Assembly: GCF_001426745.1 (NCBI RefSeq)
Contig: NZ_LMFI01000001.1
Coordinates: 1-64,000, forward strand
Length of the DNA: 64,000 nt
Reading direction: 5' to 3'
Origin: Nocardioides sp. Root140
Lineage (GTDB): Bacteria > Actinomycetota > Actinomycetes > Propionibacteriales > Nocardioidaceae
In this document: in pieces, positions 1,473 to 59,960 of the stretch
How the letters are laid out: each line of letters begins with the position of its first letter
How positions within the stretch are numbered: position 1 is the first letter of the stretch
The notes under the pieces: generated by a model
What the model was told of the DNA's origin: nothing
What the model saw: only the letters and a program-made list of their open reading frames with translations
Databases searched by the model: none
Made by a program: the position numbers and the translations under genes

Positions 1473-1482
1473 TCGCCCTGAA

Positions 1483-3091: not shown

Positions 3092-3119
3092 AAACAGGCA
3101 GCGGCCAAAGGAGCAGTAA

Positions 3120-3998: not shown

Positions 3999-4023
3999 TC
4001 CCCACCCCAACTAGGAGTCTCCC

Positions 4024-7530: not shown

Positions 7531-7541
7531 GGAGCAACAAC

Positions 7542-8285: not shown

Positions 8286-8298
8286 ACAGGAGACCGTC

Positions 8299-40720: not shown

Positions 40721-40745
40721 GTGAGTCCTCCTCTGTCAGGGTTGA

Positions 40746-40776
40746 GGGGGCGCTGGTGGTCGTCACCGGCGCCCCC
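40746..40776 (-). terminator. Hairpin between binding-protein and ligase genes
   Basis: A 13-bp stem (plus strand GGGGGCGCTGGTG pairing with CACCGGCGCCCCC, one G-U pair) with a GTCGT loop lies 20 bases past the binding-protein stop. There is no clear T-run, so it could be a weak terminator, an attenuator or an mRNA-stability element protecting the upstream transcript. Confidence 0.6.
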
Positions 40777-40796
40777 ACACGGCGCATCAAGAAATG

Positions 40797-41999: not shown

Positions 42000-42080
42000 A
42001 GGTCTCGTCTTTCTCCAGTTCGTCCGATCACCCGAGCGGTCAGGCGTGCCACAGAGGGCTGTTCGTGGTCCTTGTCCCGG

Positions 42081-43121
42081 TCAGTCGGGAACCTGTCGAT
42101 ACGGCCAAGCTCGGAAGTAGTTCTTGGTGTCTCGCCACCTCCCCACGAATCCGTCCGGCTCGCGCACCAGAACGACGACGATGATGAATCCGAAGAGAGC
42201 GATCCTGAAGTCTTCGAAGTTTTCGTCGAGGAAGGTGAACCTGCCTTCGAGAGTTCCGCGGATGAGTTCGGGGAGGAAGGTCAGGAAGAGCGCACCTACG
42301 ATCGATCCGAGCACGGAACCGAGGCCGCCGATGATGATCATCGCGATGAACTCGACACTGAGCAGGAGGTTGAAGTGGGCTGGGTTGATGAATCCGATCA
42401 GGCTGGCGTAGAAGCCACCGGCGAGCCCCGCAATGGCTGAGGACAGCGCGAACGCGAGGATCTTGTAATGCGTCAGATTGACACCCATGATCGCGGCGGC
42501 GATGTCCCGGTCCCGGATGGCAGCGAACGCCCGGCCGGTCCCCCTGCGGATCAGGTTCTTTACCCCCATGGCGATCAGCGCCAGCACGATCACCAGTAGG
42601 AAGTACCACTGCTCGCTGGTGGTGATGATCAGTGGACCGATTGACGGTATCGGCACCAGGAGCCCATTGTCCCGACCGAGCAGGTCGCTGCGGCGGATCA
42701 CGAAATCGACGACGAAAGCGAAGCCCATCGTCACCAGGGCCAGGTACAGCCCCTTGAGTCGCAGAGCAGGGAGTGCGGCGACCGTGCCGAAGAGCGCGGC
42801 AGCGCCGGCGCCGGTCAGCACCGCGAGCAGAAACGGAAACGACCAGTGCACCGAGACCAGGGCCGTGGTGTAGGCGCCGATAGCCATGAAGGCGGCGTGA
42901 CCCAGCGAAACCAGACCGGTGTTCCCGATCAACAGATTGAGTCCGATCGCCGCGATCGCCGCGATCAACGCCTGGTTGACCAGGTAGATCTGGAACGGCG
43001 AGACCACCAGCGGCACGGCGAGTACTGCGACGCCGAGCACGATCATCCAGAACCGTGAGAACTTGCTGTCGTAGAGAGCGGCATCCTTGAGGTAGGAAAC
43101 CTTGTAGTAGGCAGTGCGCAT
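42081..43121 (-). CDS. livM: ABC transporter permease, LivM type
   Basis: The 346-residue membrane protein has about nine hydrophobic segments and the LivM landmark sequences GNTGLVSLGHAAFMAIGAYT, GLYLALVTMGFAF and IAGLAGGFYASLIGFI. LivM pairs with LivH as the membrane channel. It starts two bases after the LivH stop, consistent with coupled translation. The substrate is set by the binding protein at 40797. Confidence 0.9.
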   Translation of the reverse strand: MRTAYYKVSYLKDAALYDSKFSRFWMIVLGVAVLAVPLVVSPFQIYLVNQALIAAIAAIGLNLLIGNTGLVSLGHAAFMAIGAYTTALVSVHWSFPFLLAVLTGAGAAALFGTVAALPALRLKGLYLALVTMGFAFVVDFVIRRSDLLGRDNGLLVPIPSIGPLIITTSEQWYFLLVIVLALIAMGVKNLIRRGTGRAFAAIRDRDIAAAIMGVNLTHYKILAFALSSAIAGLAGGFYASLIGFINPAHFNLLLSVEFIAMIIIGGLGSVLGSIVGALFLTFLPELIRGTLEGRFTFLDENFEDFRIALFGFIIVVVLVREPDGFVGRWRDTKNYFRAWPYRQVPD

Positions 43122-43122
43122 G

Positions 43123-44001
43123 TCAGACCCTCTCGATGTCCTTGGAGCCGAATAGGCCGAAGGGGCGGACGAGCAGGACCACGATCAGGAGGATCCACGC
43201 CATCAACTCCCGGTAGGCTCCGCCCAGGTAGCCGCCGAACAGTGTCTCGGCGACGCCGAGGATCGCGCCGCCCACGACAGCGCCCCCGGTGGCGTCGAGT
43301 CCGCCGAGGACAGCAGCTGGGAATGCCCTCAGCGCCGTGTCGCCCACGTGGATGAACAGGAAGCCGAGCATTCCGAGGATGACCCCGGCGAGCGTGCCGA
43401 CGACACCGGCCAGCCCCCAGGCGAGGGCGGAGATCCGGTTGACGTTGATGCCCATCATCTGCGCGACGTCCTGATTGCTCGCCGTGGCTCGCATCGCGAT
43501 CCCCCATCGGGTGCGTTGGAAGAACACGAAGAACGCCAGGAACGTGAGCATGGTCATGGTGAGCGTCGCTATGTTCTCCGCCGACAGGGTGACGTCCACT
43601 CCGGGCAGGCGGACGGACTCACCGGAGAACGGGAACGTGATCCGCTGCTCGGAGTGACCGAAGGCCATGCCCGCTATCCCGCGCATGAGCCAGGCGAGCC
43701 CGATCGTGACGATGATGATCGAGAAGACGGGTTGCCCGAGCATCGGGCGTAGGACCAGCCGCTCGATGACGAACCCAAGGAAGAAGGACGCCACCAGGGT
43801 GACTCCGAGAGCGACGAAGAACGGCCAGCCGTGCGTGCTGCTCAGCGTGAAGGTGACGAATGCGCCGATCATCATCATGTCGCCCTGGGCGAAGTTCAGC
43901 ACTCGGGTGGCCTTGTAGACCACAACGAATCCAAGTGCGATTAGGGCATAGACCGAGCCGATGGCCAGACCGGAGATCGTGAGCTGGAGAAAGAAGCTCA
44001 T
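43123..44001 (-). CDS. livH: ABC transporter permease, LivH type
   Basis: The 292-residue protein has about eight membrane segments with the LivH pattern GLAIGSVYALIALGFVVVYK, LNFAQGDMMMIGAF and AAVLGGLDATGGAVVGGAIL. It forms the channel with LivM. Its ATG overlaps the stop of the LivG gene region (43998-44001), as in the rest of this closely packed operon. Confidence 0.9.
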   Translation of the reverse strand: MSFFLQLTISGLAIGSVYALIALGFVVVYKATRVLNFAQGDMMMIGAFVTFTLSSTHGWPFFVALGVTLVASFFLGFVIERLVLRPMLGQPVFSIIIVTIGLAWLMRGIAGMAFGHSEQRITFPFSGESVRLPGVDVTLSAENIATLTMTMLTFLAFFVFFQRTRWGIAMRATASNQDVAQMMGINVNRISALAWGLAGVVGTLAGVILGMLGFLFIHVGDTALRAFPAAVLGGLDATGGAVVGGAILGVAETLFGGYLGGAYRELMAWILLIVVLLVRPFGLFGSKDIERV

Positions 44002-44816
44002 TCCGGGTCACCGCCTTTGCCCAGGTAGACGCGGAGGACTTCGGGGTGCTGGGCAATCTCCCGCGGTGGCCCTTCGGCCACCTTTCGTCCGAAATCGATG
44101 ACCACCACTCGATCGGAGATGTCGACGACGACTCCCATGTGGTGCTCGATCAGCACCACGGTGGTGCCCAACTGCTCCTTGACGTCGAGGATGTAGCGGA
44201 CCATGTCCTCGGTCTCTTCCTGGTTCATGCCACCGACCGGCTCGTCGAGCAGCAGCACCGCCGGCTCCATGGCCAGGGCCCTCGCGAGCTCAACACGCTT
44301 TTGCAGGCCGTACGAGAGCTGCCCAACCGGCATCTGTCGATATTTCTCGATCTCGACGAAGTCGATGATCTCCTCGGCCACGCGTCGGTGCTCCAGTTCC
44401 TTGCGCAGTTGGCGTGGAGCGAAGTAGAGCGCATCGGCCCACCATTTGGGCCGCAGCGCGTGGTGCCGGCCGAGCATCACGTTCTCCAGGACTGTCAGGT
44501 GGCTGAACAGCTCGATGTTCTGGAAGACCCGGCCAATGCCGCGGCCGGCGATCTGGTGCGGCTTGAGCCTGGTGAGGTCCTGGCCGTCGAGGTAGATCCC
44601 TCCCTGCTGTGGCCGGTAGAAGCCGGAGATGCAGTTGAGGAGCGAGCTCTTTCCTGCCCCGTTCGGACCGATGATCGAGAGCAGTTCGCCCGGCTTCACA
44701 TCGAAGCTCACGCCGTCCAGGGCATGGACTCCGCCGAATCGCAGGGAGACGTCGCGAATTTCGAGTCCCTTCTGCTCTACGGCGCGGGTGCGATCTGTGA
44801 ACTGTGTTGTCGTCAT
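43998..44816 (-). CDS. livG: ABC transporter ATP-binding protein, LivG type
   Basis: The 272-residue ATPase has Walker A GPNGAGKSS (about 50-58), the signature LSYGLQKRVELARALA and Walker B VLLLDEPVGGMN. The C-terminal VAEGPPREIAQHPEVLRVYLG is the LivG-type ending. The start at 44816 (MTTTQF) is favoured over 44825. It overlaps livH by ATGA. Confidence 0.92.
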   Translation of the reverse strand: MTTTQFTDRTRAVEQKGLEIRDVSLRFGGVHALDGVSFDVKPGELLSIIGPNGAGKSSLLNCISGFYRPQQGGIYLDGQDLTRLKPHQIAGRGIGRVFQNIELFSHLTVLENVMLGRHHALRPKWWADALYFAPRQLRKELEHRRVAEEIIDFVEIEKYRQMPVGQLSYGLQKRVELARALAMEPAVLLLDEPVGGMNQEETEDMVRYILDVKEQLGTTVVLIEHHMGVVVDISDRVVVIDFGRKVAEGPPREIAQHPEVLRVYLGKGGDPE

Positions 44817-45658
44817 GACATCCACCGCTTCCGCCGGCGATAGTGTTTGATCGCGGCATAGTTCGTCGAGGACCCCTCGGAGGCCCCCAGGTAGAACTCC
44901 TTGATGTCCTGGTTCTCGGCGATTTCGCTCGATCTCCCATCCAGCACGATCCGGCCGTTTTCGAGCACGTAGCAGTAGTCGGACAGGTCGAGGGCGATCT
45001 GCGCGTTCTGCTCGACGAGCAGCACGGTGACCCGCTCCTGGCGGCTGACTTCGGTCACGATGCGGGTGATCTCGTCGACCATCACCGGAGCCAGGCCGAG
45101 AGAGGGTTCATCCAGGATCAGCAGGCGCGGGTCCAGCATCAGCCCCCGCCCGAGGGCGAGCATCTGCTGCTCACCACCGGAGAGGTAGCCCGCCTTGCCC
45201 TTCCACAGGGTGGTGAGCTTGGGGAAGTACTCCTGCACCATCTCCAGCCGTGACTCGACCTTGCGTCGGTCGGTTAGTGTGAACGCCGCGGCGCGGAGGT
45301 TCTCCTCGACGGTGAGGTCGCGAAAGACCTGCCGGCCCTCGGGAACATGGCAGATGCCACGTCGCACGATCTTGTCGGCTGCAAGATCGGTGATCGGGTC
45401 CCCGTCCAAGCAGATTGTTCCGTCGGTGACCTCGCCGTCCTGGGAGGTGAGCACGCTCGAGATCGCCCGAAGGATGGTCGTCTTGCCTGCACCGTTGGCC
45501 CCGAGCAGGGCGCACACGGTGCCTTCCTGCACCTCCATCGAGACGCCGCGGACGGCGAGCACGACCTGGTTGTAGGTGACCTCGAGGTTCTTCAGCTCCA
45601 GCAGGGGAGTGCGGACGGTGGCAGGAGCGGCGGTCGCGCCCACTTCGGTTTGGCTCAT
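44813..45658 (-). CDS. livF: ABC transporter ATP-binding protein, LivF type
   Basis: The 281-residue ATPase has Walker A GANGAGKTT, the LivF region RGICHVPEGRQVFRDLTVEE, the signature LSGGEQQMLALGRGL and Walker B LLILDEPSLGLAP. The last ~25 residues (GSSTNYAAIKHYRRRKRWMS) form an unusual basic tail beyond the family end. The start at 45658 overlaps the stop of the PaaK-like gene (ATGA). Confidence 0.92.
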   Translation of the reverse strand: MSQTEVGATAAPATVRTPLLELKNLEVTYNQVVLAVRGVSMEVQEGTVCALLGANGAGKTTILRAISSVLTSQDGEVTDGTICLDGDPITDLAADKIVRRGICHVPEGRQVFRDLTVEENLRAAAFTLTDRRKVESRLEMVQEYFPKLTTLWKGKAGYLSGGEQQMLALGRGLMLDPRLLILDEPSLGLAPVMVDEITRIVTEVSRQERVTVLLVEQNAQIALDLSDYCYVLENGRIVLDGRSSEIAENQDIKEFYLGASEGSSTNYAAIKHYRRRKRWMS

Positions 45659-46905
45659 TTGGCGCTGCCCACCGAGGCGATGTTCCGACGGGCGTCGCCC
45701 CGGAGGTCGTCGACGGTTGGCCCCTCGTCGATGGCAGGGACCAGTTCGACGTCGTTGAACGACAAGAGGGTTCCTTCCTTCAGGCTGCGCTTGACTGCCG
45801 CGATGTCGACATCGGTGGTGGTCGCGGCGACCTTCAGTGCGATCTGGTCGACCCCGTTGCTCTCGCGCAGGGTGATCCGGTATTGCCGGGGATCCAGGCC
45901 CTCGAAGCCGGCGAGGATGAACGCCACCTGGGAGGGGTAGAGCTTCACGCCCTTGACCTTGGTCATGTTGTCCGTGCGTCCGAAGACTCCTCGAGGCAGC
46001 ACGGTGGTCGCGCCGCACTCGCACTCGGTGGCCTCGACCACAGCCAGGTCCCCGGTGCGATAGCGCAGCAACGGCATCCCTTGCTTGTTGCGGTGAGTCA
46101 CCACGAGTTCGCCCGCGGTGCCATGGGGCACCGGGTCCAGGGTCTCGGAGTCGATCACCTCGACGACGCAGAAGTCCTCACGCAGGTGCATCCCGGTCTC
46201 GGCCCGGCACTCGGCGGCAACGGGGAAGCACTCGGAGACACCGTACGTGTCGACGGCACTCAGCAGCTCGCCGTCAAAGGCGTCCTTGAGTGCCTCCCGT
46301 CGACCCTCGATCGCCGTGAAGGGCTCCCCGGTCAGCACCATGCGGCGGATACCTCGCAGCCCGGCCTCGCCGAGCCGCTGGGCGAAACTGGGGTTGCTCA
46401 TCAGCACCGTGGGGTGGCCCCGGCGGGCCAGGTTGAGTTGTTGCTCGGTGGGCACCGCACCTGCTTGCAAAGAGCACGCCCCCAACTCGGCGAAGCCTTC
46501 GTCGAACAGTCGGGCGGCCACCAGAACGTGATAGGCGAGGGTGACCTGGACGACGTCGTCCGCCGTGATCCCGGCAGCCCGAGCGACTGCGGCCAGGGCA
46601 CGAGCACTCGCGGCCAGGTCCGATGGCGTGTGGAACTCCGGGAGGAGCCCGAGGCGGGCGCTCGGGGTGAAGTTCATCCGCACCACGCCGGGCACCCGGA
46701 AGCCGCCCCAAGCGGTGTCGTTCTCGAAGCAGTCCTCGAAGTCGGCACGGCTGAGCAAGGGCAGCTCCTGGAACTGCTCCCATGTCTCGACATGCGTCAG
46801 GTCGATCCCCGCAGTGAGCGCCCTCTGGGCGTAGAACGGCAGGTTTGAAATCCTGCGGAGCTGCCCGCGGATTTCGGCGTCCAAACGGCCTTCGTGCTGA
46901 CTCAT
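45655..46905 (-). CDS. PaaK-like AMP ligase family protein with degenerate P-loop
   Basis: The 416-residue protein aligns with phenylacetate-CoA ligases over its length: LPFYAQRALTAGIDLTHVET, TGEPFTAIEGRREAL, DTYGVSECFPVAAEC, LRYRTGDLAVVEATECECGA and FGRTDNMTKVKGVKLYPSQV. At the place of the Ser/Thr/Gly-rich ATP loop (SSGTTGxP) it has NFTPSARLGLLPEFHTPSDL (about 74-93), so the loop is missing. It may be catalytically altered or a non-ligase homologue. It heads the importer operon, and an operator of the CAACC-N8-GGTTG type lies 43 bases upstream. Confidence 0.82.
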   Translation of the reverse strand: MSQHEGRLDAEIRGQLRRISNLPFYAQRALTAGIDLTHVETWEQFQELPLLSRADFEDCFENDTAWGGFRVPGVVRMNFTPSARLGLLPEFHTPSDLAASARALAAVARAAGITADDVVQVTLAYHVLVAARLFDEGFAELGACSLQAGAVPTEQQLNLARRGHPTVLMSNPSFAQRLGEAGLRGIRRMVLTGEPFTAIEGRREALKDAFDGELLSAVDTYGVSECFPVAAECRAETGMHLREDFCVVEVIDSETLDPVPHGTAGELVVTHRNKQGMPLLRYRTGDLAVVEATECECGATTVLPRGVFGRTDNMTKVKGVKLYPSQVAFILAGFEGLDPRQYRITLRESNGVDQIALKVAATTTDVDIAAVKRSLKEGTLLSFNDVELVPAIDEGPTVDDLRGDARRNIASVGSAK

Positions 46906-48730: not shown

Positions 48731-50098
48731 TCAGGGTTGCGCCGGACCGGCCCACGCAGGAGCCGCACTGGTCTCGACGAAATGGGTGTCGTAGTCGCCC
48801 AGCACGAACTGCTGGGAGTCGAGCAGATGTTGCAGGAACCCGAGATTGGTCTTGACTCCCTCGATCTGAAACTCGCCGGCGGCAACTCGGGCTCGGGCGA
48901 TGGCCTGGTCGCGGTCCGCCCCCCAGGTGCACAGCTTGGCGAGGAGAGAGTCATAGTGCGGGCTGACGGAGTTGCCGGCCCGATATCCGGAGTCGACGCG
49001 GACCCCCTCCCCTCGGGGCTCGATCCACCCGGTGATCTGTCCGGGGCTCGGCAGGAATGAGACCGGGTCTTCGGCGCAGATCCGCAACTCGATGGCATGG
49101 CCGGCGTGGGCGGGCGCGGAGTCGCAGGTCGGGGACTGGCCACCGGCGATGAGGAACTGCTGCTCGACCAGGTCGACTCCGGTGGTCAGTTCGGTGATCG
49201 CGTGCTCGACCTGCAACCGGGTGTTCATCTCCAGGAAGACGTAGTCCTGCTTGACCGGATCGACCAAGCACTCCACCGTACCTGCGTTGCGGTAGCCGAT
49301 CGCGCTGCCGGCCCGTCGCGCTCCCTCGAGCATGCGTTGCCGCAGATCGGGCGAGACTCCCGGTGACGGGGTCTCCTCGAGGATCTTCTGGTGCCGACGC
49401 TGCAGGGAGCAATCGCGTTCGCCGAGAGTGATCACCTCGCCCTCGTTGGTCACCAGGATCTGGATCTCTACGTGGCGGGCGTTGGCGATGAACCGCTCGA
49501 GAAGGATGTCGGGGGAGCCGAAGAAGCGCTCGGCCCTGCTCAGCGCCGTCGCGAAGCAGTCCTCGAGCTCGCTCGCGTCGTGCGCGACACCCATGCCTAT
49601 GCCGCCTCCGCCCGCGGACGCCTTGACCATCAAGGGGAAGCCGATCCGGTCCGCGTGGGCAACCGCGTCGGCCAAGGAGGTGGCCGGTGTCCCGGAGCCG
49701 GGCGCTACCGGGACACCGGCCGCGGCCATGATGTTGCGGGCGTTGACCTTGTCGCCCAGGGCTTCGATGGCTGAGGCATCAGGTCCGACCCAGGTCAGGC
49801 CGGCCTGCGCCACTGCGGCGGCGAAGGTGGGGTTCTCTGCCAGGAAGCCGTAACCGGGATGGATCGCCTGGGCGCCCGTCCGCTGTGCGGCCTCGAGGAC
49901 CTTTTCCATGTCCAGATAGCTCTGGCGTGCCGGTGCGGGTCCGATCAGCACGGCTTCGTCGGCCTCGGCCACGAACGGCATTTCCTGATCGGCGTCGCTG
50001 TGGACGGCGATGGTCCGGAGGCCCATCTTCTTGGCGGTTCGGATCACCCGGCTGGCGATTTCGCCTCGATTGGCGATCAACACGGACTCGAACATCAC
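48731..50098 (-). CDS. Biotin carboxylase subunit of acyl-CoA carboxylase
   Basis: The 455-residue protein is an ATP-grasp biotin carboxylase. The N-terminal FESVLIANRGEIASRVIRTA, the glycine-rich KASAGGGGIGMGVAHD, ERDCSLQRRHQKILEETPSP and FLEMNTRLQVEHAITE are all in place. It ends after the carboxylase domain and has no biotinyl domain, so it needs the separate carrier protein at 56159 and the carboxyltransferase at 58440. It overlaps the MeaB gene by ATGA. The acyl substrate is determined by the carboxyltransferase. Confidence 0.93.
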   Translation of the reverse strand: MMFESVLIANRGEIASRVIRTAKKMGLRTIAVHSDADQEMPFVAEADEAVLIGPAPARQSYLDMEKVLEAAQRTGAQAIHPGYGFLAENPTFAAAVAQAGLTWVGPDASAIEALGDKVNARNIMAAAGVPVAPGSGTPATSLADAVAHADRIGFPLMVKASAGGGGIGMGVAHDASELEDCFATALSRAERFFGSPDILLERFIANARHVEIQILVTNEGEVITLGERDCSLQRRHQKILEETPSPGVSPDLRQRMLEGARRAGSAIGYRNAGTVECLVDPVKQDYVFLEMNTRLQVEHAITELTTGVDLVEQQFLIAGGQSPTCDSAPAHAGHAIELRICAEDPVSFLPSPGQITGWIEPRGEGVRVDSGYRAGNSVSPHYDSLLAKLCTWGADRDQAIARARVAAGEFQIEGVKTNLGFLQHLLDSQQFVLGDYDTHFVETSAAPAWAGPAQP

Positions 50099-51075
50099 TC
50101 GACGCCTTCCGACAACCGGGGGCGAAGGCCCGCCTCGACGATGTCGAGGGCCAGGCCCTGGGGGTCGCGTCGGCGTCCCAGGAGGTCTTCCAGTGTTTGG
50201 GGCGGAAGGCCAGTCCCGCTGACACCGAGCAGGCGACGACGGGCGTGCTCGCCTACGAAGGCGGCCACCTCGCGTGTCAGGTTCTCCTGACGACGCTCGT
50301 CGAGCCGACCGGATTCGATCTGGCGTTCGCGGAATGCCTCGATGCCCTGCAACAGCTCGGGCACGCCGTCTCCCCGGTGTGCCGATGTCTGTATGACGTC
50401 CGCGTTCGCGCCCTTGCCCGATTGCTCGCGGAGCACCCGGCGAAGTTCCCGGGCCAGGCGTTCGGCCCCCTCCCGGTCCGCCTTGTTGACGACGAACTGG
50501 TCGGCAATCTCCATCAGCCCGGCCTTCATGGTTTGCACCACGTCACCCATGCCCGGCACCTCGACCACGACGGTGCAGTCGACCGCGCCCACAACGTCCA
50601 CCTCCGACTGCCCCACGCCGACCGTCTCGACCAGGATCCGGTCGAAGCCGGCCGCGTCGAGGAGACGTATCGCGCTCGGTGTGGCCAGCGCGAGCCCGCC
50701 GACGTGTCCGCGGTTGGCCATCGAGCGGACGAAGACGCCCTGGTCGGCGGCGAAGGACCGCATGCGCACCCGGTCACCCAGCAACGCGCCGCGGGTGAAG
50801 GGGCTCGACGGGTCGACCGCCAGGACGCCGACACTCAGGCCTTCGGCGCGGTAGTGCGCTACGAGCTGGTCCACCAGTGTGGACTTTCCGGCTCCTGGCG
50901 GGCCGGTGATCCCGATCGTGAAGGCCTTGCCCGTGTGCGGGAAGAGGGGGGTGTGCAACTCACTGGCACCTTGACCGTTCTCCACTAGGGTGATCGCCTG
51001 GGCGATGGCGCGGTGATTCCGCTCCAGCACTTCGCCGGCCAACCGGGAGGTTGGTCGTTCTGTCTGCATGGTCAT
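50095..51075 (-). CDS. meaB: MeaB/ArgK-type G3E GTPase, mutase chaperone
   Basis: The 326-residue GTPase has Walker [10 protein letters not shown] (about 58-66), [40 protein letters not shown] and NKAD. The start at 51075 (MTMQTERP) is favoured by GGAGGG upstream; an ATG at 51093 overlapping the MBL stop is possible. It serves the divergent mutase of the same operon and is distinct from the MeaB at 35908, as expected when each mutase needs its own chaperone. Confidence 0.9.
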   Translation of the reverse strand: MTMQTERPTSRLAGEVLERNHRAIAQAITLVENGQGASELHTPLFPHTGKAFTIGITGPPGAGKSTLVDQLVAHYRAEGLSVGVLAVDPSSPFTRGALLGDRVRMRSFAADQGVFVRSMANRGHVGGLALATPSAIRLLDAAGFDRILVETVGVGQSEVDVVGAVDCTVVVEVPGMGDVVQTMKAGLMEIADQFVVNKADREGAERLARELRRVLREQSGKGANADVIQTSAHRGDGVPELLQGIEAFRERQIESGRLDERRQENLTREVAAFVGEHARRRLLGVSGTGLPPQTLEDLLGRRRDPQGLALDIVEAGLRPRLSEGVE

Positions 51076-51089
51076 CTCGGTCCCTCCAT

Positions 51090-52085
51090 TCATCCCACGG
51101 CCGCGAACAGGTCCCCGTCGCGGCGCAGTGTTCCGTCCTCGATGCCCTCGAGGAGGTGGGTTCCCAGCACACTCGCGGCCCACGGGATGACCCCGTAGAC
51201 CCTCTGGTTGTAGATCTCCAGTTCCAGGTCGGCGAAGGAGCGCGGTCGTGCCGTCAGCTCCCGACGGATCAGGCTGGTCCTGTTCCGGATCCGGTCCGAG
51301 GTGATGGTTGTTGCCTCAGCCACCGAGTCCGCTCCGAAGAGTGCGTCCCCGTGGCCTCGTACGGCGATGTCGACCGGCAGGTCGGCAATCCGCGCTAGCC
51401 CTGCCAGATAGCCCGCGGTCCCGCCGCCGCCGGGGGCGTACCACGGAATCGCGGTGCCTTTGGCGGCGAGGACGTCGGAGCAGGCGAGGATCCCCAGTTC
51501 GGGCTCGAAGTAGGAGTACATGCCGTCCTCGTGCCCCGGTGTCGGGATCGCCTCCCACCGGGTTCGGCCGAGGTGGATCACGTCACCTGGCTCGACCACG
51601 GTGGTGGCCACCGGTGCTGCGGAGGTCCCGCAGTCGGTCTCGAAGTGCTCGACGATCTCCAGGTCCGCCCGCTCGGGAGCGAGATCCCGCAAGACTGTCG
51701 GGAAGATCAGTTCGGCCGTTGCGTGCGCATTGGCGACCAGCACACCCAGGCGGGATGGGCCGAGGACGCGTACCCGTTCCTCGAACAGCCCGATCCCACC
51801 GGCGTGGTCGAGGTGCGGATGGGTCACCAACACCGTGTGGACGGCGCGGATGTCGAGGCCCAGGCTGCTCAGTGCCTCGGCGACCCCGTCGCGTCCCTCC
51901 TCGGTGCCGAAGCCGCAATCGATGAGCGCGACTCCGACATCGTCCTGGATGACCACGATGTTTCCCGGAGCCGGCCAGAACGTGCTCCGGGCCTGCAGGA
52001 CGTGCACATGGTCGTGCAGCCGGGTCACCACAAAGCCCAGGTCAGTGGGGGCTGCACGGAATCGTCCCGCCGTCGGCTCGGGCAT
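51090..52085 (-). CDS. MBL-fold metallo-hydrolase
   Basis: The 331-residue protein has the zinc motif HPHLDH (residues 89-94), TPGHEDGMYSYF, CSDVLA and a late RGHGDALF. The architecture, including a C-terminal helical extension, resembles the MBL protein at 12313, so both may hydrolyse CoA thioesters or lactones. The start at 52085 (MPEPTAGRF) begins the homologous region; the frame upstream runs through the dehydrogenase gene. Confidence 0.82.
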   Translation of the reverse strand: MPEPTAGRFRAAPTDLGFVVTRLHDHVHVLQARSTFWPAPGNIVVIQDDVGVALIDCGFGTEEGRDGVAEALSSLGLDIRAVHTVLVTHPHLDHAGGIGLFEERVRVLGPSRLGVLVANAHATAELIFPTVLRDLAPERADLEIVEHFETDCGTSAAPVATTVVEPGDVIHLGRTRWEAIPTPGHEDGMYSYFEPELGILACSDVLAAKGTAIPWYAPGGGGTAGYLAGLARIADLPVDIAVRGHGDALFGADSVAEATTITSDRIRNRTSLIRRELTARPRSFADLELEIYNQRVYGVIPWAASVLGTHLLEGIEDGTLRRDGDLFAAVG

Positions 52086-52095
52086 CCCGCACACG

Positions 52096-53004
52096 TCACT
52101 TCTCCCGAGCAGCAGGGCGGTCAGCACCGAGGAATTCGTACCAGCCACCGCGGCTGGAGTGCTTGAATGTGGAGTCACCCAGGAAGCCCGCGGAGAACAC
52201 CTGGTGAGCCAGCGGCGGCACCGCGTAGCGGTCCCCGCACTTGTCGTGCAGGTACTCCTGCGCGTGGTACCACGCATCGAAACTCGCCGTGTCGTCGAGC
52301 AATTCGAAGACACCCATCGGCCAGCCAAGCCCAGTTTTGACCATCTCGTCGATTTCGGCCGGTCCGGCGATGCCGAGCTCGACCGAGCGGATCGCTTCGG
52401 CGATGAAGCTGTTGACGAACCTGGTCATGAAGAAGCCGGGGGCGTCCTTCACCTGCACCGGACGCTTACGGATGGTCGACAAGTAGTCGATCACAGCACC
52501 GGTCACTTCGGGAGCAGTCAAGGCACTCGGAGCGACCTCGACCAACGGCATCACGTTCGACGGATAGAACCAGTGCGTGCCCACCAATCTCGACGGATCG
52601 GGCAACGCCGAACTCAACTCGGCGATCATGATGCTGGAGGTGTTGGTGGCAACGATCGCGGTCGGCGGAGCGGCCTCAGCGGCCGACGCCAGCGCCTCGA
52701 GCTTGAGTTCCGGCACTTCGGGAATCGACTCGAATACTAGATCGGCGGAGCCGAGCCCGTCCGCATAGTCCGTTGTGCCCTCGAGCCGCGACATCGCTTC
52801 GCGGAGACCCTCCTCTGTAAGGCGACCGCGATCGACCGCCTTCCGGAGGCCGTAGGGCCCGTTCTCGACGGCGTCCAGGCCCTTCTCAACCGTGGCCTCA
52901 CGACGGGAGACGATGGTCACCCGGGCGTCGCTCCCGGTCAGGCAGGCCAGTGCGATGCCGTGGCCCATCAAGCCGGCACCGCCGAGGATCGAGATGTTCT
53001 TCAT
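52096..53004 (-). CDS. 3-Hydroxyacyl-CoA dehydrogenase
   Basis: The 302-residue NAD enzyme has the Rossmann motif LGGAGLMGHGIALACL (about 7-22), ATNTSSIMIAEL, the catalytic His144 in GTHWFYPSNVMPLVEV and the C-terminal helical domain with KDAPGFFMTRFVNSF. In place of GxGxxG the cofactor loop reads GGAGLMG. It would oxidise a 3-hydroxyacyl-CoA produced by the hydratase at 55222. The start at 53004 is set by the family N-terminus; the upstream frame lies inside the B12 subunit gene. Confidence 0.9.
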   Translation of the reverse strand: MKNISILGGAGLMGHGIALACLTGSDARVTIVSRREATVEKGLDAVENGPYGLRKAVDRGRLTEEGLREAMSRLEGTTDYADGLGSADLVFESIPEVPELKLEALASAAEAAPPTAIVATNTSSIMIAELSSALPDPSRLVGTHWFYPSNVMPLVEVAPSALTAPEVTGAVIDYLSTIRKRPVQVKDAPGFFMTRFVNSFIAEAIRSVELGIAGPAEIDEMVKTGLGWPMGVFELLDDTASFDAWYHAQEYLHDKCGDRYAVPPLAHQVFSAGFLGDSTFKHSSRGGWYEFLGADRPAAREK

Positions 53005-53014
53005 CGTGATCGCC

Positions 53015-53425
53015 TCAGTTCCGGGTTCCGGTGGCCACCCGCGCGTTTTCGCGGATATAGGATTTGATCTCGTCAGGGTCGCTGCCGGGTCCGAAGATCC
53101 GACCGACGCCTTCGGCCCGTAGTTTCTTGACATCGGACGACGAGATGATGCCGCCGCCCATGAGCAGCACGTCCTGTTGACCGCTCTCCTTGAGAGCCTG
53201 CGCGATCTCGATGAAGACGTGCATGTGGCCACCAGCGGAACTCGAGATGCCGATCACATCCACGTCCTCCTGGGTGGCGGCGCTGAGCACGTCCTCGGGG
53301 AGGAGGAAGTTCATGAAGACCACCTCGAACCCGCCGTCGCGCAGCACGCGCGCTAAGTAGCGGACGCCGCGGTCATGACTGTCGTGGGTGGGCTTGGCGA
53401 GCAGCACCCGGATGGGTTGTTCCAT
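53015..53425 (-). CDS. B12-binding small subunit of a divergent acyl-CoA mutase
   Basis: The 136-residue cobalamin-binding domain has DSHDRG (DxHxxG, about residues 14-19), which keeps the cobalt-ligating His, and LLMGGGIISSSD (GG). The SxL motif is changed to SSSAGGH (Leu to Ser). The divergence from the small subunit at 33825 parallels the divergence of the two large subunits. It lies just downstream of the large subunit in transcription order. Confidence 0.88.
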   Translation of the reverse strand: MEQPIRVLLAKPTHDSHDRGVRYLARVLRDGGFEVVFMNFLLPEDVLSAATQEDVDVIGISSSAGGHMHVFIEIAQALKESGQQDVLLMGGGIISSSDVKKLRAEGVGRIFGPGSDPDEIKSYIRENARVATGTRN

Positions 53426-53469
53426 CGTGACTCCTTTTGGATGTGATTGGTGAGCGGGGAAGCGATCGG

Positions 53470-55200
53470 TCAGAACTCATGGGGTGCGGCCCAGCCGAGG
53501 TGCTCCTTGAGCACCGCCATCATTTCGCCGGTGCTTGCCTCGGCGCGGGCTGCTTCGATGGATGCCTCCATCAGCCGGTCGCTGCCCAGATCGGCGACCT
53601 CGGCCTTGGCGAACTCGGCGGCCGCGACGTGCAGGCCTGCGATCGCCTTCTCGTAGCGGTCGTTGTCGCGAGTGGCCCGCAATTCTTGGATCCGCTCGAC
53701 GGCCAGTTGTTCCAGGGACGGGTCGACGGCGAAGACCTCGTGCTCCTGGTTCTCCTCGACCTTGTAGCAGTTGAGGCCGACGATGCGCCGCTCGCCGCTG
53801 TTGACCTGCTCGCGCCACTGCTCGGACGTGGCCTCGACCTCGGATCTGATCCAGCCGGACTGCTGCGCCGCGACGAATCCGCCCTGCTTCTCGACCTCGT
53901 CGGCGATCTCCATCGCTTTGCGGGCCAATTGATCGGTGAGCGCCTCGACGTAGTAGGAGCCGGCGAGCGGGTCGGAGACAGCTGTGACGTTGGTCTCCTC
54001 CTGGACGACCTGCTGCACTCGCAGGGCGAGGGTGTGCGCCTCGACCGAGGGGATGCCCAGGGCCTCGTCGTACGCGGAGACCTCCATGGCCTGGGTACCC
54101 GCTATCACCGCGCCCAAGGCGTGGATCGACGTGCGGATCAGGTTCACCAGCGGCTGTTGCGCGGTGAGCACGGCACCGGAGGTGTGCGAGTGGATCCGCA
54201 CATGCATTGAGCGCGGGTCACGGGCACCGAACTCGTCGTGCATCGTGGTGGCCCACATGCGCCGCATGGCGCGGACCTTCGAGATCTCCTCGAAGAAGTC
54301 GTTGGCCTGGGAGAACTGGAAGCCGAAGCGGGGCAGGAAGTCGTCGGCCTTCATGCCGGCGGCGATGCACGCGCGGGCGATCTCGCGCCCGACGGCGATC
54401 ATCAGCCCGGTCTCTTGGGCTGCGTTGCCTCCTGCCTCCTCGATGCCGTAGCCGAAGAAGTTCGTGGTGTTCCATTTCGGCATGTGCTTGGAGCAGTAGG
54501 AGATCAACTCGGTGGCCAGCTTCAATCCCTGGTCGGCCGGGAATGCGCTCATGCCGACGTACGCCGACTGGTGGTACCAGTTCATAGAGTTGCCGCGGAG
54601 CTCGTCAGGGCGGACGCCCATCTTCTCCCCGTAGGCGATGTACTGCGCGAGTGCCGGAATGGTCTGGTAGTAGGTGATGTGGACGACGTTGATCTTGCGC
54701 AGGTCCATACCGTCGAACAGGCGCTCCATGTCTCGGACGTTGTAGATGCCCATGCCTACCTGGCCGATGCGTCCGCGAGCTGCGGGGTGGTCCGGGTCGA
54801 GACCCTCGTGCGAGACCAGGTCGTAGACCAGGTTGTAGAACCGTTGGCCGAAGTAGCCGATCATGCCCTGCGACTCGAGATAGTCCATCCGCTCACGGGT
54901 CTGCTCCGCGAGGCCGTAGCCGATCACTGGCTGGTTGGCCCACGCCATCAGCTGGTGTTGGGCGGCCAGGTTGCCGCGGGTGAACGGGAACCCACCGGGG
55001 CGACCGATCTGCTCCTCGACGTCGATGCCGTCGAGGTCATGGGGGAAGTAGGCGCTCTTGAGCGGCAGCCCGGACTGTGACCGGGGGCTGGTCGCCTGCT
55101 TCGGGGCGGCGTCGCCGAAGCGTCCCACCATCTTGGCGTACTCGGTTGACCACTCATCTTCCATGCGCTGGGACTTGTCCCTGTCTTCTGCTGACGACAT
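53470..55200 (-). CDS. Highly divergent B12-dependent acyl-CoA mutase large subunit
   Basis: The 576-residue protein shows the mutase fold by its order of motifs (PFTRGN, LPRFGFQF then NDFFEEISKVRAMRRMWATT, RIHSHTSGAVLTAQQPLVNL, SDPLAGSYYVEALTDQ, RIVGLNCYKVEE). The active-site region is strongly altered. MYRxRxWTxRQYAGFG is replaced by QHQLMAWANQPVIGYGLAEQ (81-100), and GTIQND by GNSMNWYHQS (203-212). The segment GYHMQEAGA reads GYGIEEAGG, placing Gly252 where the catalytic His stands. It cannot be a methylmalonyl-CoA mutase. A new carbon-skeleton rearrangement, or a non-mutase function, must be considered. Operon partners are its B12 subunit, MeaB, HCDH, hydratase and biotin carboxylase. Confidence 0.87.
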   Translation of the reverse strand: MSSAEDRDKSQRMEDEWSTEYAKMVGRFGDAAPKQATSPRSQSGLPLKSAYFPHDLDGIDVEEQIGRPGGFPFTRGNLAAQHQLMAWANQPVIGYGLAEQTRERMDYLESQGMIGYFGQRFYNLVYDLVSHEGLDPDHPAARGRIGQVGMGIYNVRDMERLFDGMDLRKINVVHITYYQTIPALAQYIAYGEKMGVRPDELRGNSMNWYHQSAYVGMSAFPADQGLKLATELISYCSKHMPKWNTTNFFGYGIEEAGGNAAQETGLMIAVGREIARACIAAGMKADDFLPRFGFQFSQANDFFEEISKVRAMRRMWATTMHDEFGARDPRSMHVRIHSHTSGAVLTAQQPLVNLIRTSIHALGAVIAGTQAMEVSAYDEALGIPSVEAHTLALRVQQVVQEETNVTAVSDPLAGSYYVEALTDQLARKAMEIADEVEKQGGFVAAQQSGWIRSEVEATSEQWREQVNSGERRIVGLNCYKVEENQEHEVFAVDPSLEQLAVERIQELRATRDNDRYEKAIAGLHVAAAEFAKAEVADLGSDRLMEASIEAARAEASTGEMMAVLKEHLGWAAPHEF

Positions 55201-55221: not shown

Positions 55222-55995
55222 TCAGCGTGCGGCGGTGAGGAATGCGGCAATGCGTTCCTCGTGTTCGGGCGTCGACATCAGGCGGGCCTGGGCCTGGGCG
55301 GCACGGTCCATCGATGTCTCGAGGTCGTGCTGGTCGGCTCCACGCAGGGCGAGGAGGGACTCGGCCAAGACCGGGGCAGGGACGTTCTCGACGAGCTCGA
55401 GCACCACGTCGCAGGCCGTGTCCATGAGCTCCTCGTCGGGACCGACCACGCGGTCGACCAAGCCCAGCTCAAGGGCCTCGCCGGCGGGCAACTTGTGACC
55501 GCCCAAGAGGAATCGCAAGGCCTGGTGGCGGCCAATGCGGCGGGCCAGAAACCAGCTTCCCCCGAGGTCGGGAACCAGGCAGACCGTGGCGAACGCGGCG
55601 GTGAGCGAGGCCGTCGGGACGGCGACCCTGATGTCGCAGGCCAGCGCGAGGTCGACCCCTGCGCCCGCGGCGCTGCCGTTCAACGCGGCAACCACTGGGA
55701 TCGGACACGCCTGCAGGGTCTTGACCAGTTCTTGGGACCCGCGGTACTTCGCGACCCGGCTGGCGTGGTCGAGCTGACCCCACTCGGCGAGAGTGCTCAC
55801 GTCGCCCCCGGCGCAGAAGAGGCGCCCGGTGCCGGTCACCACGATGCCGCGGACCTCGGGATTCGACCCGGCCTGCTGGACCGCGGCGCTCAGGTCCGCA
55901 GTCACCTCGCCGTCCAAGGTGTTGCCGCGGGAGGGGCGGTTCAGTCGCAGTACTGCGATCGCGCCACGTCGTTCGATTTCCACGCTGGAATTCAC
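55222..55995 (-). CDS. Enoyl-CoA hydratase/isomerase family protein
   Basis: The 257-residue crotonase has GTGRLFCAGGDVSTLAEWG as oxyanion-hole region and GSAAGAGVDLALACD, with Asp where the first catalytic Glu would be. The next segment is LVPDLGGSWFLARRIG, the Asp-containing PaaG-like pattern. An isomerase or a specialised hydratase is therefore likely. It is the first gene of the unit 55995-47130, with two operator repeats immediately upstream. Confidence 0.87.
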   Translation of the reverse strand: MNSSVEIERRGAIAVLRLNRPSRGNTLDGEVTADLSAAVQQAGSNPEVRGIVVTGTGRLFCAGGDVSTLAEWGQLDHASRVAKYRGSQELVKTLQACPIPVVAALNGSAAGAGVDLALACDIRVAVPTASLTAAFATVCLVPDLGGSWFLARRIGRHQALRFLLGGHKLPAGEALELGLVDRVVGPDEELMDTACDVVLELVENVPAPVLAESLLALRGADQHDLETSMDRAAQAQARLMSTPEHEERIAAFLTAAR

Positions 55996-56158: not shown

Positions 56159-56392
56159 TCAGTCGGTGGGAACCTCCATCACGACGAGCACGTCGCCCTC
56201 GGCGATGACCGAGTCCGCGGACGTGTTCACGGCGGTGACGGTGCCCGCCTTGGGGGCGATCACGGGGATCTCCATCTTCATGGACTCGAGGACGATCAGC
56301 TGATCGCCCTTGTTCACCTCGTCGCCAACAGAGACGAGGATCTTGTACACGTTTCCGGCCAACTCGGCCCGGACCTCCTGTTGTTTGCTCAT
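56159..56392 (-). CDS. Biotinyl carrier protein (BCCP)
   Basis: The 77-residue protein is a stand-alone biotinyl domain with the biotinylation motif ESMKMEI (Lys39) and the symmetrical GTVTAV turn. It carries carboxybiotin between the biotin carboxylase (48731) and the carboxyltransferase (58440). It overlaps the TetR gene by ATGA, so it belongs to the unit starting at 59960 together with the carboxyltransferase and thiolase. Confidence 0.93.
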   Translation of the reverse strand: MSKQQEVRAELAGNVYKILVSVGDEVNKGDQLIVLESMKMEIPVIAPKAGTVTAVNTSADSVIAEGDVLVVMEVPTD

Positions 56393-57156
56393 GGTGATTC
56401 TCCAGTCCTGATGCCGATCACGCCTTGGTCCAGGCGTTCTCTGGCGAAAGTGAGTTCTGATTCGAGTGAGTCAGCGCGTTCGCGGAGTTCACGCACGAGT
56501 GTGAAGCTCTCCGATAGTGCCGATTCGACCGAGTCGGCGCGCGGCCAGGCCGGCCGTGCAGGTGCGTCGCTGGCCAGCCAGCCGTGCTCCAGCAACTGGA
56601 CGAACTCGCCGATGATCTCTCTCTGGTCGTGCCGATCGGCGTCGTACCACGTGTACATCCAGTTGGTCATGCCCAGGAGGCCGAGCACCATGAACCGAGC
56701 CGATCCGGCACGCAGCAGGCCCTTTTGTTGGCCTTCCTCGACCACCTTGGTGAAGGCGTTCTCGTAGCTGTGCTTCATCTGTTTGATCGTTTCTTGCATG
56801 TCCTCGGGCAACTCCCACTCCTCCTGGAAGACCACGGAGAGCAGGCTGCGCTCGAGAGTGACGAACTCGATGTGTGAAGACACCATCCGTCGAAGCCGTT
56901 CGTCTGGTGGAAGATCCAGTTCGGAGATGGGGACGACCTTCTCCGCGATCCTGCCCAGGATTTGGTCGTAGATGGCGCGGAGCAGGGTGTTCTTGGTGTC
57001 GATGTAGTAGTACAGCGAGGCCTTCTTCACGTTCAAGGCGTCCGCGAGGTCGTCGAGGGTGGTTGCGCGGTACCCGCGCTCGGCAAAAAGTTCGCCGGCG
57101 ACCGCGACCAGACGTTCCATGGTGACCCGCTGTTGGCCGTTGGTTGCACGTTCCAT
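56389..57156 (-). CDS. TetR-family regulator, probable master repressor of the carboxylase/mutase regulon
   Basis: The 255-residue protein has a TetR HTH (VAGELFAERGYRATTLDDLA, then DALNVKKASLYYYIDTKNTL) and a long ligand domain. An unusual C-terminal heptad-rich helix (residues about 220-245, SVESALSESFTLVRELRERA then DSLESELTFARERL) looks like a coiled coil. The ATG at 57156 begins the domain. It is embedded between the thiolase and carrier genes of the unit headed by operator A, so it would be autoregulated. The CAACC-N8-GGTTG sites at four unit heads are its best candidates. Confidence 0.88.
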   Translation of the reverse strand: MERATNGQQRVTMERLVAVAGELFAERGYRATTLDDLADALNVKKASLYYYIDTKNTLLRAIYDQILGRIAEKVVPISELDLPPDERLRRMVSSHIEFVTLERSLLSVVFQEEWELPEDMQETIKQMKHSYENAFTKVVEEGQQKGLLRAGSARFMVLGLLGMTNWMYTWYDADRHDQREIIGEFVQLLEHGWLASDAPARPAWPRADSVESALSESFTLVRELRERADSLESELTFARERLDQGVIGIRTGESP

Positions 57157-58439: not shown

Positions 58440-59960
58440 TCAGTGGAGTCCGAGGCCCAGGCCCTGCAGGGCCGCGGTCAATGCGGCCCGGGTCTGTTCG
58501 GGCTGGATAACGTCGTCGACGATGCCCGCGTCCACGGCCCGGAAGGGGTGGGTGACCTCGGCGCGGTATTGCGCGGCCAGGGCGGTGCGCACGGCGCGAG
58601 GGTCGTCGGCTGCTGCCAGCTCGCGACGGTTCAAGATGCCTACGGCTCCCTCCGGGCCCATCACGGCGATCTCCGACTGCGGCCATGCCCAGGTGAAGTC
58701 CGCCCCGAGGGAGCGTGAGCCCATCGCAATGTAGGCGCCGCCGTACGCCTTGCGCATGATGACGGTCAGGCGAGGGGCGTCGGCGTCCGCGTAAGCGTCG
58801 AGCATGTCGGCACCGTGCGTGATCACTGCTCTGCGCTCCTCGACCGCTCCGGGGATGAAGCCCGGGACGTCGACCCAGGTGGTGATGGGCACACCGAACC
58901 GGCCGCAGAAGCGAACGAACCGGGCCACCTTCTGGGCGGCCTTCGCGTCCAGAATTCCGCCGCGTCGCCGCGGCTGGGAGGCGACGATCCCGATCGGGAC
59001 GCCATTGAGTCGTGCGAATCCGGTGACCACGCTGGGCGAGAACTTGGCGGAGAGTTCGAAGGTCGTCCCTCCATCGACGATGCACGACAGGACGTGGCGT
59101 ACGTCGAAGGCAACGTGGCTCGCCGCCGGAATCAGGTCGGCCAGCTCCTGGACACTCCGCTCGGGCTCGCGGGGTGCCTGGAGGGGAAGCTCGCCGCCAC
59201 GCTGCTGCGGGAGGAAGGAGAGGAGGCCGATGACGGAGCGCAGCGCCTCCCGCTCGTCGGCCACCTCGAGGTGTGCGACTCCGCTATCGCGGGTGTGCAG
59301 GCCGGCTCCGCCGAGGTCTTCCGGGTCGACGTCCTCGCCGGTGGCTGCCTTGACCACCTCGGGTCCGGTCAGGAACAGACGGCCCTGGCCGCTGACCATG
59401 ATCGTCCAGTCGGTAAGGGCCGGCGAATAGGCTGCGGCTCCAGCGCAAGGGCCCATGATCACCGAGATCTGCGGAACCCGCTTCTTGGCACGGACGTTCT
59501 GGGCGAAGATCCGGCCGCACCCGTCGAGGGCCTCGATGCCTTCGTGGATCCTGGCGCCGCCCGAGTCGTTGATGTAGATGATCGGCATGCCGTTGTCGAT
59601 CGCGAAGCGCTGGAGGCGCACGACCTTGTCGGCAAAGACGGAGCCGATCGAACCCCCGGCGACCGCGAAGTCATGGCTCGCAATTGCGGTCGGGCGCCCG
59701 TGGATGAGCCCCCACCCGATGGCCACGCCGTCGGATGGCAGGGGAGTGGTCGCGCCCCGGGCCTCACTGCGATATCCGTTGCGCATCGCCATGATCTCGT
59801 TAAAGGCGCCGCTATCGCACAGGGCCACCGCCCGGTTCCGGGCAGAGAGGTCGCGCGGCTCCTTGATCGGCAGGGCGGCCAGCCGGTCGCGACGCTCCTG
59901 CATTGGTCCTTCGAGAAGTGTTCCCGCGAGGACGTCGGTCTCAATGTTGATGGTCATCAT
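58440..59960 (-). CDS. Acyl-CoA carboxylase carboxyltransferase (beta) subunit
   Basis: The 506-residue protein has both crotonase-like halves of PccB/AccD-type carboxyltransferases. The N-half has GGSIGSVFADKVVRLQRFAI, INDSGGARIHEGI and VIMGPCAGAAAYSPALTDW. The C-half has RRGGILDAKAAQKVARFVRF, WVDVPGFIPGAVEE and RKAYGGAYIAMGSRSLGAD. The residue after AYGGAY, Asp in propionyl-specific PccB and reported to govern acyl specificity, is Ile (about position 410). It takes carboxybiotin from the BCCP at 56159. ATG at 59960 or 59957. Operator A lies 25-42 bases upstream. Confidence 0.92.
   Translation of the reverse strand: MMTINIETDVLAGTLLEGPMQERRDRLAALPIKEPRDLSARNRAVALCDSGAFNEIMAMRNGYRSEARGATTPLPSDGVAIGWGLIHGRPTAIASHDFAVAGGSIGSVFADKVVRLQRFAIDNGMPIIYINDSGGARIHEGIEALDGCGRIFAQNVRAKKRVPQISVIMGPCAGAAAYSPALTDWTIMVSGQGRLFLTGPEVVKAATGEDVDPEDLGGAGLHTRDSGVAHLEVADEREALRSVIGLLSFLPQQRGGELPLQAPREPERSVQELADLIPAASHVAFDVRHVLSCIVDGGTTFELSAKFSPSVVTGFARLNGVPIGIVASQPRRRGGILDAKAAQKVARFVRFCGRFGVPITTWVDVPGFIPGAVEERRAVITHGADMLDAYADADAPRLTVIMRKAYGGAYIAMGSRSLGADFTWAWPQSEIAVMGPEGAVGILNRRELAAADDPRAVRTALAAQYRAEVTHPFRAVDAGIVDDVIQPEQTRAALTAALQGLGLGLH

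Follow-up and report, generated by a model that had tools for sequence, protein, structure and literature searches.

The window analysed here, a 64,000-nucleotide stretch at the start of contig NZ_LMFI01000001.1 of Nocardioides sp. Root140, contains on its minus strand a gene cluster that includes both subunits of an acyl-CoA mutase. Sequence comparison firmly assigns the large subunit (hereafter, the window mutase) to an undescribed clade of acyl-CoA mutases with an apparently rebuilt active site, in which the residue aligned with the catalytic histidine of known mutases is replaced in every readable member. In minus-strand order, the genes of the cluster are as follows (L068, from Nocardia australiensis, and L075 are loci of relatives described below):

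58440..59960, minus strand: acyl-CoA carboxylase carboxyltransferase subunit, accessory (PF01039, 4.2e-148; start inferred), shared with L068 and L075
57182..58378, minus strand: thiolase, 398 aa, with the nucleophilic Cys (MQCASG) and the His of GHP kept and the second catalytic Cys replaced (TVPAGSG)
56389..57156, minus strand: TetR-family regulator (PF00440 and PF17932 above cut-offs; start inferred)
55222..55995, minus strand: enoyl-CoA hydratase/isomerase-family (ECH) protein, directly upstream of the mutase (PF00378, 8.8e-49)
53470..55200, minus strand: acyl-CoA mutase large (substrate-barrel) subunit, mutase A, 576 aa, assigned from PF01642, the alignment with solved mutases and a structural model
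53015..53425, minus strand: B12-binding small subunit, mutase B, 136 aa, with an intact DxHxxG motif (DSHDRG)
52096..53004, minus strand: 3-hydroxyacyl-CoA dehydrogenase, 302 aa (PF02737/PF00725)
51090..52085, minus strand: metallo-beta-lactamase-fold (MBL) hydrolase (PF00753; start inferred), in the same place only in L068 and L075
50095..51075, minus strand: MeaB-type GTPase chaperone (PF03308, 2e-86; TIGR00750 above cut-off; start inferred, reading frame open to 51183)
48731..50098, minus strand: biotin carboxylase subunit, accessory, in the same place in L068
47130..48689, minus strand: AMP-forming acyl-CoA ligase (PF00501), 74% identical in L068 and 73% in L075, a candidate for activation of the substrate acid

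The window mutase matched PF01642 with an E-value of 1.5e-146 over residues 41-569, covering positions 2-512 of the 512-position profile, and its GC content by codon position (0.65/0.42/0.89) was coding-like. It scored 384 bits with the methylmalonyl-CoA mutase (MCM) equivalog NF006944 (cut-off 876) and 160 bits with the fused isobutyryl-CoA mutase (IcmF) model NF045497 (cut-off 1500), far below the cut-off in both cases, and at 576 aa it is not the single fused chain of IcmF. The closest solved sequence was that of 2-hydroxyisobutyryl-CoA mutase (HCM) 4r3u (4.2e-97), followed by human MCM. An AlphaFold2 model built with 42 family sequences (pLDDT 86.3, pTM 0.88) was superposed on human MCM 2xiq over 490 residues at 1.8 A (Z 49.1, VIA-align), on HCM 4r3u over 486 residues (Z 46.1; 33% identity) and on IcmF with Z up to 41.4; judged by this model, the protein without doubt has the acyl-CoA mutase barrel. 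Comparison with the 85%-identical copy of Nocardia australiensis gave a nonsynonymous rate (dN) of 0.094 and a synonymous rate (dS) of 1.016, indicating strong purifying selection. A sequencing or annotation artefact was ruled out by the 576 open codons, the 85% identity in an independent genome and these substitution rates.

His244 and Gln197 of MCM contact the thioester carbonyl, and His244 is regarded as aiding the radical rearrangement and shielding the radical in acyl-CoA mutases; we take the positions of Gln330, His244 and Gln197 to be substrate or adenosine contacts in MCM. Reference residues are numbered here as in Propionibacterium shermanii MCM, and HCM numbering was verified on the Methylibium protein (Ile90, Asp117, His245). 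A sequence-only reading of this DNA had proposed that the histidine of the family motif is replaced by Gly252 and that the usual substrate segments have given way to unrelated residues, and the alignments bore out both points. The motif aligned without gaps (human MCM SGYHMQEAG, HCM SGYHISEAG, window FGYGIEEAG), which puts Gly252 at the position of His244; a slip hiding a histidine at the motif was ruled out by the ungapped alignment and by the flanking Tyr243 and Glu247. Similarly, YATMYAFRPWTIRQYAG of P. shermanii MCM corresponds to LAAQHQLMAWANQPVIG in the window mutase, and GTIQND to GNSMNW. From MCM to the window mutase, the substitutions are Arg82 to Met85, Arg87 to Gln90, Tyr89 to Val92, Ser114 to Asn123, Phe117 to Tyr126, Thr195 to Asn204, Gln197 to Met206, His244 to Gly252, Phe287 to Gln295, Gln330 to His339 and Asn366 to Ser375. 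The segment of MCM Arg207 has no Arg in the window mutase, where the multiple alignment places Val215, the exact counterpart being unsure because pairwise alignments place the gaps differently. A 6-residue insert, YFGQRF, precedes the Ser114 strand. Thus, the MCM signature of Tyr89, Gln197, Arg207 and His244 is replaced by Val, Met, a segment free of Arg, and Gly, and the HCM signature of Ile90, Asp117 (the hydroxyl-binding residue) and catalytic His245 by Val92, Val125 and Gly252. The further statement that all known substrate-determining residues are lost was too strong, since Tyr243, Glu247, Arg283, His328 and Glu370 remain, as does Asn236.

Among the matches listed from 58 genomes, none outside the own genome exceeded 41% identity to the window mutase, and the 19 loci L008-L026 from this search all have His at the motif. 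When 394 genomes of the same class were searched, 32 further matches reached 1e-112; in the 29 loci read, only L037 (genome G228, about 40% identity), found without the use of peptide patterns, shares the features of the window mutase. Alignment of these two proteins yielded the patterns GNSMNWY and W[AM][NQ]Q[PM]V[IF]G, and a scan of 84,980 species genomes with them returned 84 stretches, of which 55 were confirmed, giving 53 related loci. The closest relatives are from Nocardia australiensis (85% identity), Microtetraspora (73%) and Streptomyces colonosanans (68%). According to the record titles, 47 of the 53 loci belong to metagenome-assembled genomes (MAGs), most of which are from Acidimicrobiia and other Actinobacteria, Alphaproteobacteria, Burkholderiales and Desulfobacterota, with one each from Bacillota and Pyrinomonadaceae; some genomes have several loci, and many of the contigs are short. 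All 418 plasmid records with a match to the window mutase were below 60% identity, plasmid records searched with the sequence P0005 at 1e-100 gave no match, and no match to the mutase was found in viral contigs. A literature search limited to open-access papers found no description of an acyl-CoA mutase lacking this histidine.

The family alignment has 54 rows (the window mutase, P0005 and 52 of the 53 loci), with the frameshifted L117 (13 in-frame stops) left out and retained in the DNA neighbourhood searches; alignment A2 leaves out 12 of the 53 loci. Position 244 is occupied by a residue other than His in all 53 readable rows, the window mutase included (47 Gly, 4 Asp, 1 Cys, 1 Glu): in clade A (42 rows, 41 readable) Gly 35, Asp 4, Cys 1 and Glu 1, and in clade B Gly in 12/12. 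Taken with the purifying selection, this constancy goes beyond what chance or sequencing errors would give. Equally uniform are the changes of Gln330 to His (53/53; clade A 41/41, clade B 12/12), Gln197 to Met (54/54), Phe287 to Gln (53/53) and Ser114 to Asn (53/53), as well as the retention of Tyr243, Glu247, Arg283, His328, Glu370 and Asn236 (53/53 each). The conservation of Asn204, Met206, Gln90 and Val92 is partly by construction, these being pattern residues; positions 114, 244, 287 and 330 fall outside both search patterns. A histidine supplied from another segment had been named as a finding that would count against the sequence-only reading. A candidate for such a residue is His339, which lies at the MCM Gln330 position on another barrel strand: it is the only whole-family His that MCM and HCM are without, and besides the universal His328 it is the only mostly-His column common to both clades (53/53), His174 being present in 41/41 rows of clade A and 0/12 of clade B; His339 may or may not take over the role of His244.

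In the 76-sequence FastTree tree, support was 0.999 for clade A, 1.0 for clade B and 1.0 for both together; the two clades joined a plasmid mutase of Sphingobium (L126) at 0.876, and HCM with its nearest homologues (5 rows) grouped separately at 0.946. With 30 extra mutases from ten host genomes added, the values were 0.928 for clades A and B and 0.999 for these plus the Sphingobium mutase. The root of both FastTree trees was placed on the long branch of the MCM beta chain, with supports read after re-rooting, and the trees were built without L105, L115, L092, L089 and L083. A further tree, with 57 rows, was computed in IQ-TREE under a mixture model; only 16 rows of the family entered it, and 10 near-duplicates as well as the MCM beta chain were omitted. 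It supported clade A at 99, clade B at 100, HCM (6 rows) at 100, the family at 84 and the family plus the Sphingobium mutase at 99. Forcing the latter group together with the six HCM-clade rows in an approximately unbiased (AU) test cost 3.57 log units (p-AU 0.40), so that sisterhood to HCM is not rejected; an earlier run had grouped just 3 of the 6 rows and was hence uninformative, the six-row run being the fair test. By these trees the family is a clade of its own outside the sampled MCM, IcmF and HCM rows, and the clustering inside a characterised clade that had been looked for was not seen among the types sampled; the named references were MCM and HCM only, IcmF being represented by the IcmF-type row of the own genome (1081/1500 bits, partial stretch), and RcmA, IaaG, ethylmalonyl-CoA mutase, non-fused isobutyryl-CoA mutase and (1-methylalkyl)succinyl-CoA mutase lie outside the reference set.

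The His was retained in 45 of the 51 non-family rows. One of the other six is an engineered mutant, the solved chain 1e1c with the title 'METHYLMALONYL-COA MUTASE H244A Mutant', and the remaining lineages have Gln (L163), Asp (L171 and L180) or Asn (L173 and L126) at this position. Sequence comparison thus indicates that loss of the His recurs within the mutase superfamily; the distinctiveness claimed for the window pattern stood with respect to the sampled characterised clades, but not as to the loss of the His itself, which is shared with five further sampled lineages. The mutase of Sphingobium sp. WTD-1 (L126) shares with the family Asn at MCM 114 and 195, a GYF-type insert and a residue other than His at 244, and differs in having EHN at 242-244, Gln330 kept and another gene neighbourhood; it has a 63-64% identical relative in genome G589. 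In the L126 locus (1-9766), the mutase is accompanied by a gene of the AtuA (acyclic-terpene-utilisation) family, by carboxylase subunit genes and by a gene related to enoyl-CoA hydratase.

Nearly the same cluster as in the window is present in Nocardia australiensis. The dedicated B12 subunit and MeaB of the sequence-only reading were both confirmed, by the DSHDRG motif at 53015-53425 and by the clear PF03308 match from 50095, and the motif His and Gly of the B12 subunit were found in 50/50 tblastn matches in family loci (49 distinct loci, one duplicated). Neighbours were counted as homologues within 6 kb of the mutase, for clade A at the 21 of 42 loci with at least 5 kb on each side. The clade A counts were: B12 subunit 20, dehydrogenase 17, thiolase 17, MeaB 12, ligase of the window type 9, ECH 5, carboxyltransferase 3 and acyl-CoA dehydrogenase 2. 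At 20 control mutases from related genomes, mostly of one actinobacterial type and thus no broad sample, MeaB was found at 1 and all seven other neighbour types at none. The conserved gene set is composed of mutase A, mutase B, 3-hydroxyacyl-CoA dehydrogenase and thiolase, often with MeaB and a regulator; the TetR-family gene cluster (two members checked) is present in 12 clade A loci. Clade B (n = 8) has the B12 subunit at 8 loci, MeaB at 7, acyl-CoA dehydrogenase at 7, ECH at 5, dehydrogenase at 3 and thiolase at 1. Because relatives in several bacterial groups keep the same partner genes, the window mutase is probably a working enzyme.

Gene order in the module varies: the thiolase is divergent in Alphaproteobacteria and Acidimicrobiia and co-directional in Burkholderiales (MeaB-dehydrogenase-thiolase-mutase-B12) and the Bacillota MAG. 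An ECH-family protein is found in the same cluster and place as in the window in L068, L075 and L088 and about 9 kb from the mutase in L069, and ECH-family genes follow the B12 subunit in L093, L095, L096 and L097. Ten flanking genes scanned in L074, L078, L081, L088 and L106 gave a CoA-related family in one case (PF00549 CoA-ligase, L078), the other nine being unrelated or without a match. No Rfam match to a cobalamin riboswitch was obtained at the gathering score within the window. Beside the cluster, a branched-chain-type ATP-binding cassette transporter set and two AMP-binding ligase-like genes occupy 38741-46905 of the window (minus strand), and homologues of several of these genes adjoin the mutase in the Burkholderiales loci L093, L095 and L096.

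The module thiolases are atypical. All 28 clade A module thiolases read, including that of the window, keep the nucleophilic Cys, and their second catalytic Cys (TLCIGG in a solved relative) is replaced by Pro in 21 and Gly in 7, in motifs of the PAGSG or GGGGG/GAGGG type. The Gly-type thiolases (Burkholderiales and the Bacillota MAG) are about 35-40% identical to the window thiolase, and the second Cys is present in one thiolase located close to a clade B mutase (L110). The missing Cys may point to a substituted 3-oxoacyl-CoA.

Among the known mutases, HcmAB (Aquincola/Methylibium; 4r3u) shares with the window system the barrel, a separate B12 subunit, a MeaB partner, a hydrophobic residue at position 90 and, in the Methylibium locus, the dehydrogenase; it differs in having His245, Gln198 and Asp117 where the window mutase has Gly252, Met206 and Val125, and the window mutase has the 6-residue insert and falls outside the HCM clade. 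The layout of HCM-type loci (B12 subunit and MeaB, some with a dehydrogenase; Methylibium has all three) is found at 50095-55200 of the window. MCM (1req, 2xiq; L001 in the own genome) shares the fold, Tyr243, Glu247, Arg283, His328 and Glu370, and differs at Tyr89, Gln197, Arg207, His244 and Gln330, all changed in the window mutase, whose B12 domain is a separate chain. IcmF is a mutase fused with a GTPase and a B12 domain. The aligned chain (4xc6; 1,113 residues) shares the fold at 23-25% identity, and the IcmF-type row of the own genome keeps the His. According to PMC10481361, the substrates of this fused isobutyryl/pivalyl-CoA mutase are non-carboxylated branched acyl-CoAs. PMC7176365 describes HcmAB as well as RcmAB of Kyrpidia tusciae, which prefers (R)-3-hydroxybutyryl-CoA, and an RcmAB-like system in Desulfococcus biacutus; benzylmalonyl-CoA mutase IaaGH is covered in PMC8360864.

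Six PF01642 genes were found in the own genome (contigs C1 and C12): MCM alpha and beta types, an IcmF type, one (L004) called MeaA-like by eye only, and two in the window. The MCM alpha (L001) is above the equivalog cut-off; the beta-type L006 (best NCBIfam match TIGR00642, 420/617 bits, partial stretch) aligns Ala with the His and has a gap where the Gln stands. The second window gene, P0003 (34250-35911, plus strand), is another atypical mutase with VGQHMQQAG at the motif, the His being kept and both Tyr243 and Glu247 being Gln; it has its own MeaB (35908-36798, plus strand) and groups with L172 of another genome, outside the sampled characterised clades.

Based on analogy with HCM, we propose, with a probability of about 0.6, that the window mutase is an adenosylcobalamin (AdoCbl)-dependent enzyme with a rewired active site that converts a branched, probably 2-hydroxylated acyl-CoA to a 3-hydroxyacyl-CoA. 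Homolysis of AdoCbl would start a 1,2-shift in which the CoA-thioester group of the branched acyl-CoA migrates, the substrate by analogy being most likely a 2-hydroxy-2-alkyl-acyl-CoA; the dehydrogenase would oxidise the resulting 3-hydroxyacyl-CoA to the 3-oxoacyl-CoA, and the unusual thiolase would cleave the latter. The thioester contacts made by His244 and Gln197 in MCM would come from other groups, with His339 as the leading candidate. The use of AdoCbl, the direction of the reaction, the hydroxylated substrate and the role of His339 are what we infer. Since acyl-CoA dehydrogenase is near only 2/21 clade A loci, the clade A product seems to enter the pathway directly at the 3-hydroxy stage, and the HCM logic is the simplest reading because it uses all the conserved clade A parts. 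Comparable pathways have been described: PMC13188929 gives, for the isobutylene plasmid cluster of Mycolicibacterium ELW1, a ligase, a two-subunit mutase, an auxiliary protein, a 3-hydroxybutyryl-CoA dehydrogenase and an acetyl-CoA C-acetyltransferase, and PMC7888143 reports for acetone in sulfate reducers that 2-hydroxyisobutyryl-CoA is rearranged and the product oxidised, with the same proposed for ketones up to pentanones. The sequence-only reading suggested a new rearrangement, which is possible; by our analysis, the neighbourhood fits an HCM-like logic, whatever the substrate, at least as well. More tentatively, at slightly less than an even chance, the family may represent a new AdoCbl mutase class that acts on a branched acyl-CoA no characterised mutase handles and feeds the dedicated dehydrogenase and atypical thiolase, with a site rebuilt on Asn123, Tyr126, Asn204, Gln295 and His339 instead of His244/Gln197.

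Several observations weigh against the HCM-like reading. 1) HCM Asp117 and Ile90 are Val125 and Val92 in the window mutase, so that any substrate hydroxyl would be held differently. 2) Within 6 kb, the dehydrogenase is absent from 4/21 clade A loci, the thiolase from 4/21 and MeaB from 9/21, and the control sample mentioned above is narrow. 3) Clade B has the same active site without the module (thiolase 1/8, dehydrogenase 3/8, acyl-CoA dehydrogenase 7/8), and the rearrangement may thus serve different pathways. 4) At HCM or HCM-like plasmid loci (n = 5), the counts were B12 subunit 4, MeaB 4, ligase 3, dehydrogenase 1, thiolase 1 and ECH 1; the full module is therefore no general HCM feature, and the analogy rests on two loci. 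5) No substrate-specific ligase is conserved, the window-type ligase being near 9/21 clade A loci.

The window mutase could instead be a divergent ordinary HCM, or an (R)-specific RcmA type, that interconverts 2-hydroxyisobutyryl-CoA and 3-hydroxybutyryl-CoA with a drifted site. Its gene set resembles those of the isobutylene cluster and of the HCM locus in Methylibium, Val occupies HCM positions 90 and 117, and the AU test (p 0.40) leaves room for the family plus L126 as sister group of the HCM clade. RcmA reportedly has Val at position 117, and the D117V variant of HCM is said to accept (R)-3-hydroxybutyryl- and pivalyl-CoA. However, sampled HCM or HCM-like rows keep both the His and Gln197 in 7/7 cases and Asp117 in 6/7, the family branches outside the HCM clade, whose own support is 100, and the module thiolases are atypical; we consider this explanation unlikely. 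In the 90 rows from loci L151-L240, Val at HCM 117 together with the His was found in none.

We also consider improbable, though worth weighing, the rearrangement of a branched or cyclic acyl-CoA that carries no hydroxyl (a quaternary centre as in pivalyl-CoA, a ring contraction or expansion, or an isoprenoid acid), with hydration carried out downstream by the ECH-family protein. The replacement of the MCM Arg/Tyr substrate contacts by hydrophobic residues would suit such a substrate, as would the ECH genes beside the mutase (window, L068, L075, L088) or after the B12 subunit, the acyl-CoA dehydrogenase (7/8) and ECH (5/8) of clade B, and the clustering of the distantly related Sphingobium mutase with AtuA-family and carboxylase genes. 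In clade A, however, acyl-CoA dehydrogenase (2/21) and ECH (5/21) are infrequent, and hydration and desaturation thus lie outside its conserved core. It is very unlikely that the window mutase is a catalytically inactive or regulatory paralogue comparable to the beta chain of two-chain MCM: although the catalytic His and thioester-binding Gln are lost, as in the own-genome L006, and MCM alpha (L001) and IcmF-type (L005) genes lie elsewhere in the genome, the mutase is paired with a dedicated B12 subunit whose motif is intact and usually with a dedicated MeaB, a second mutase stretch was found, among the flanks examined, in L104 only, and the purifying selection and family-wide gains of His339, Gln295 and Asn123 suggest a site that was rebuilt rather than decayed.

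A family with members across phyla, His244 replaced, substitutions around that position throughout and, in one of its subfamilies, a conserved pathway module makes the dependence of B12 mutase chemistry on this residue directly testable. In addition, it could reveal a new substrate class for the degradation of branched acids and for engineered acyl-CoA mutases.

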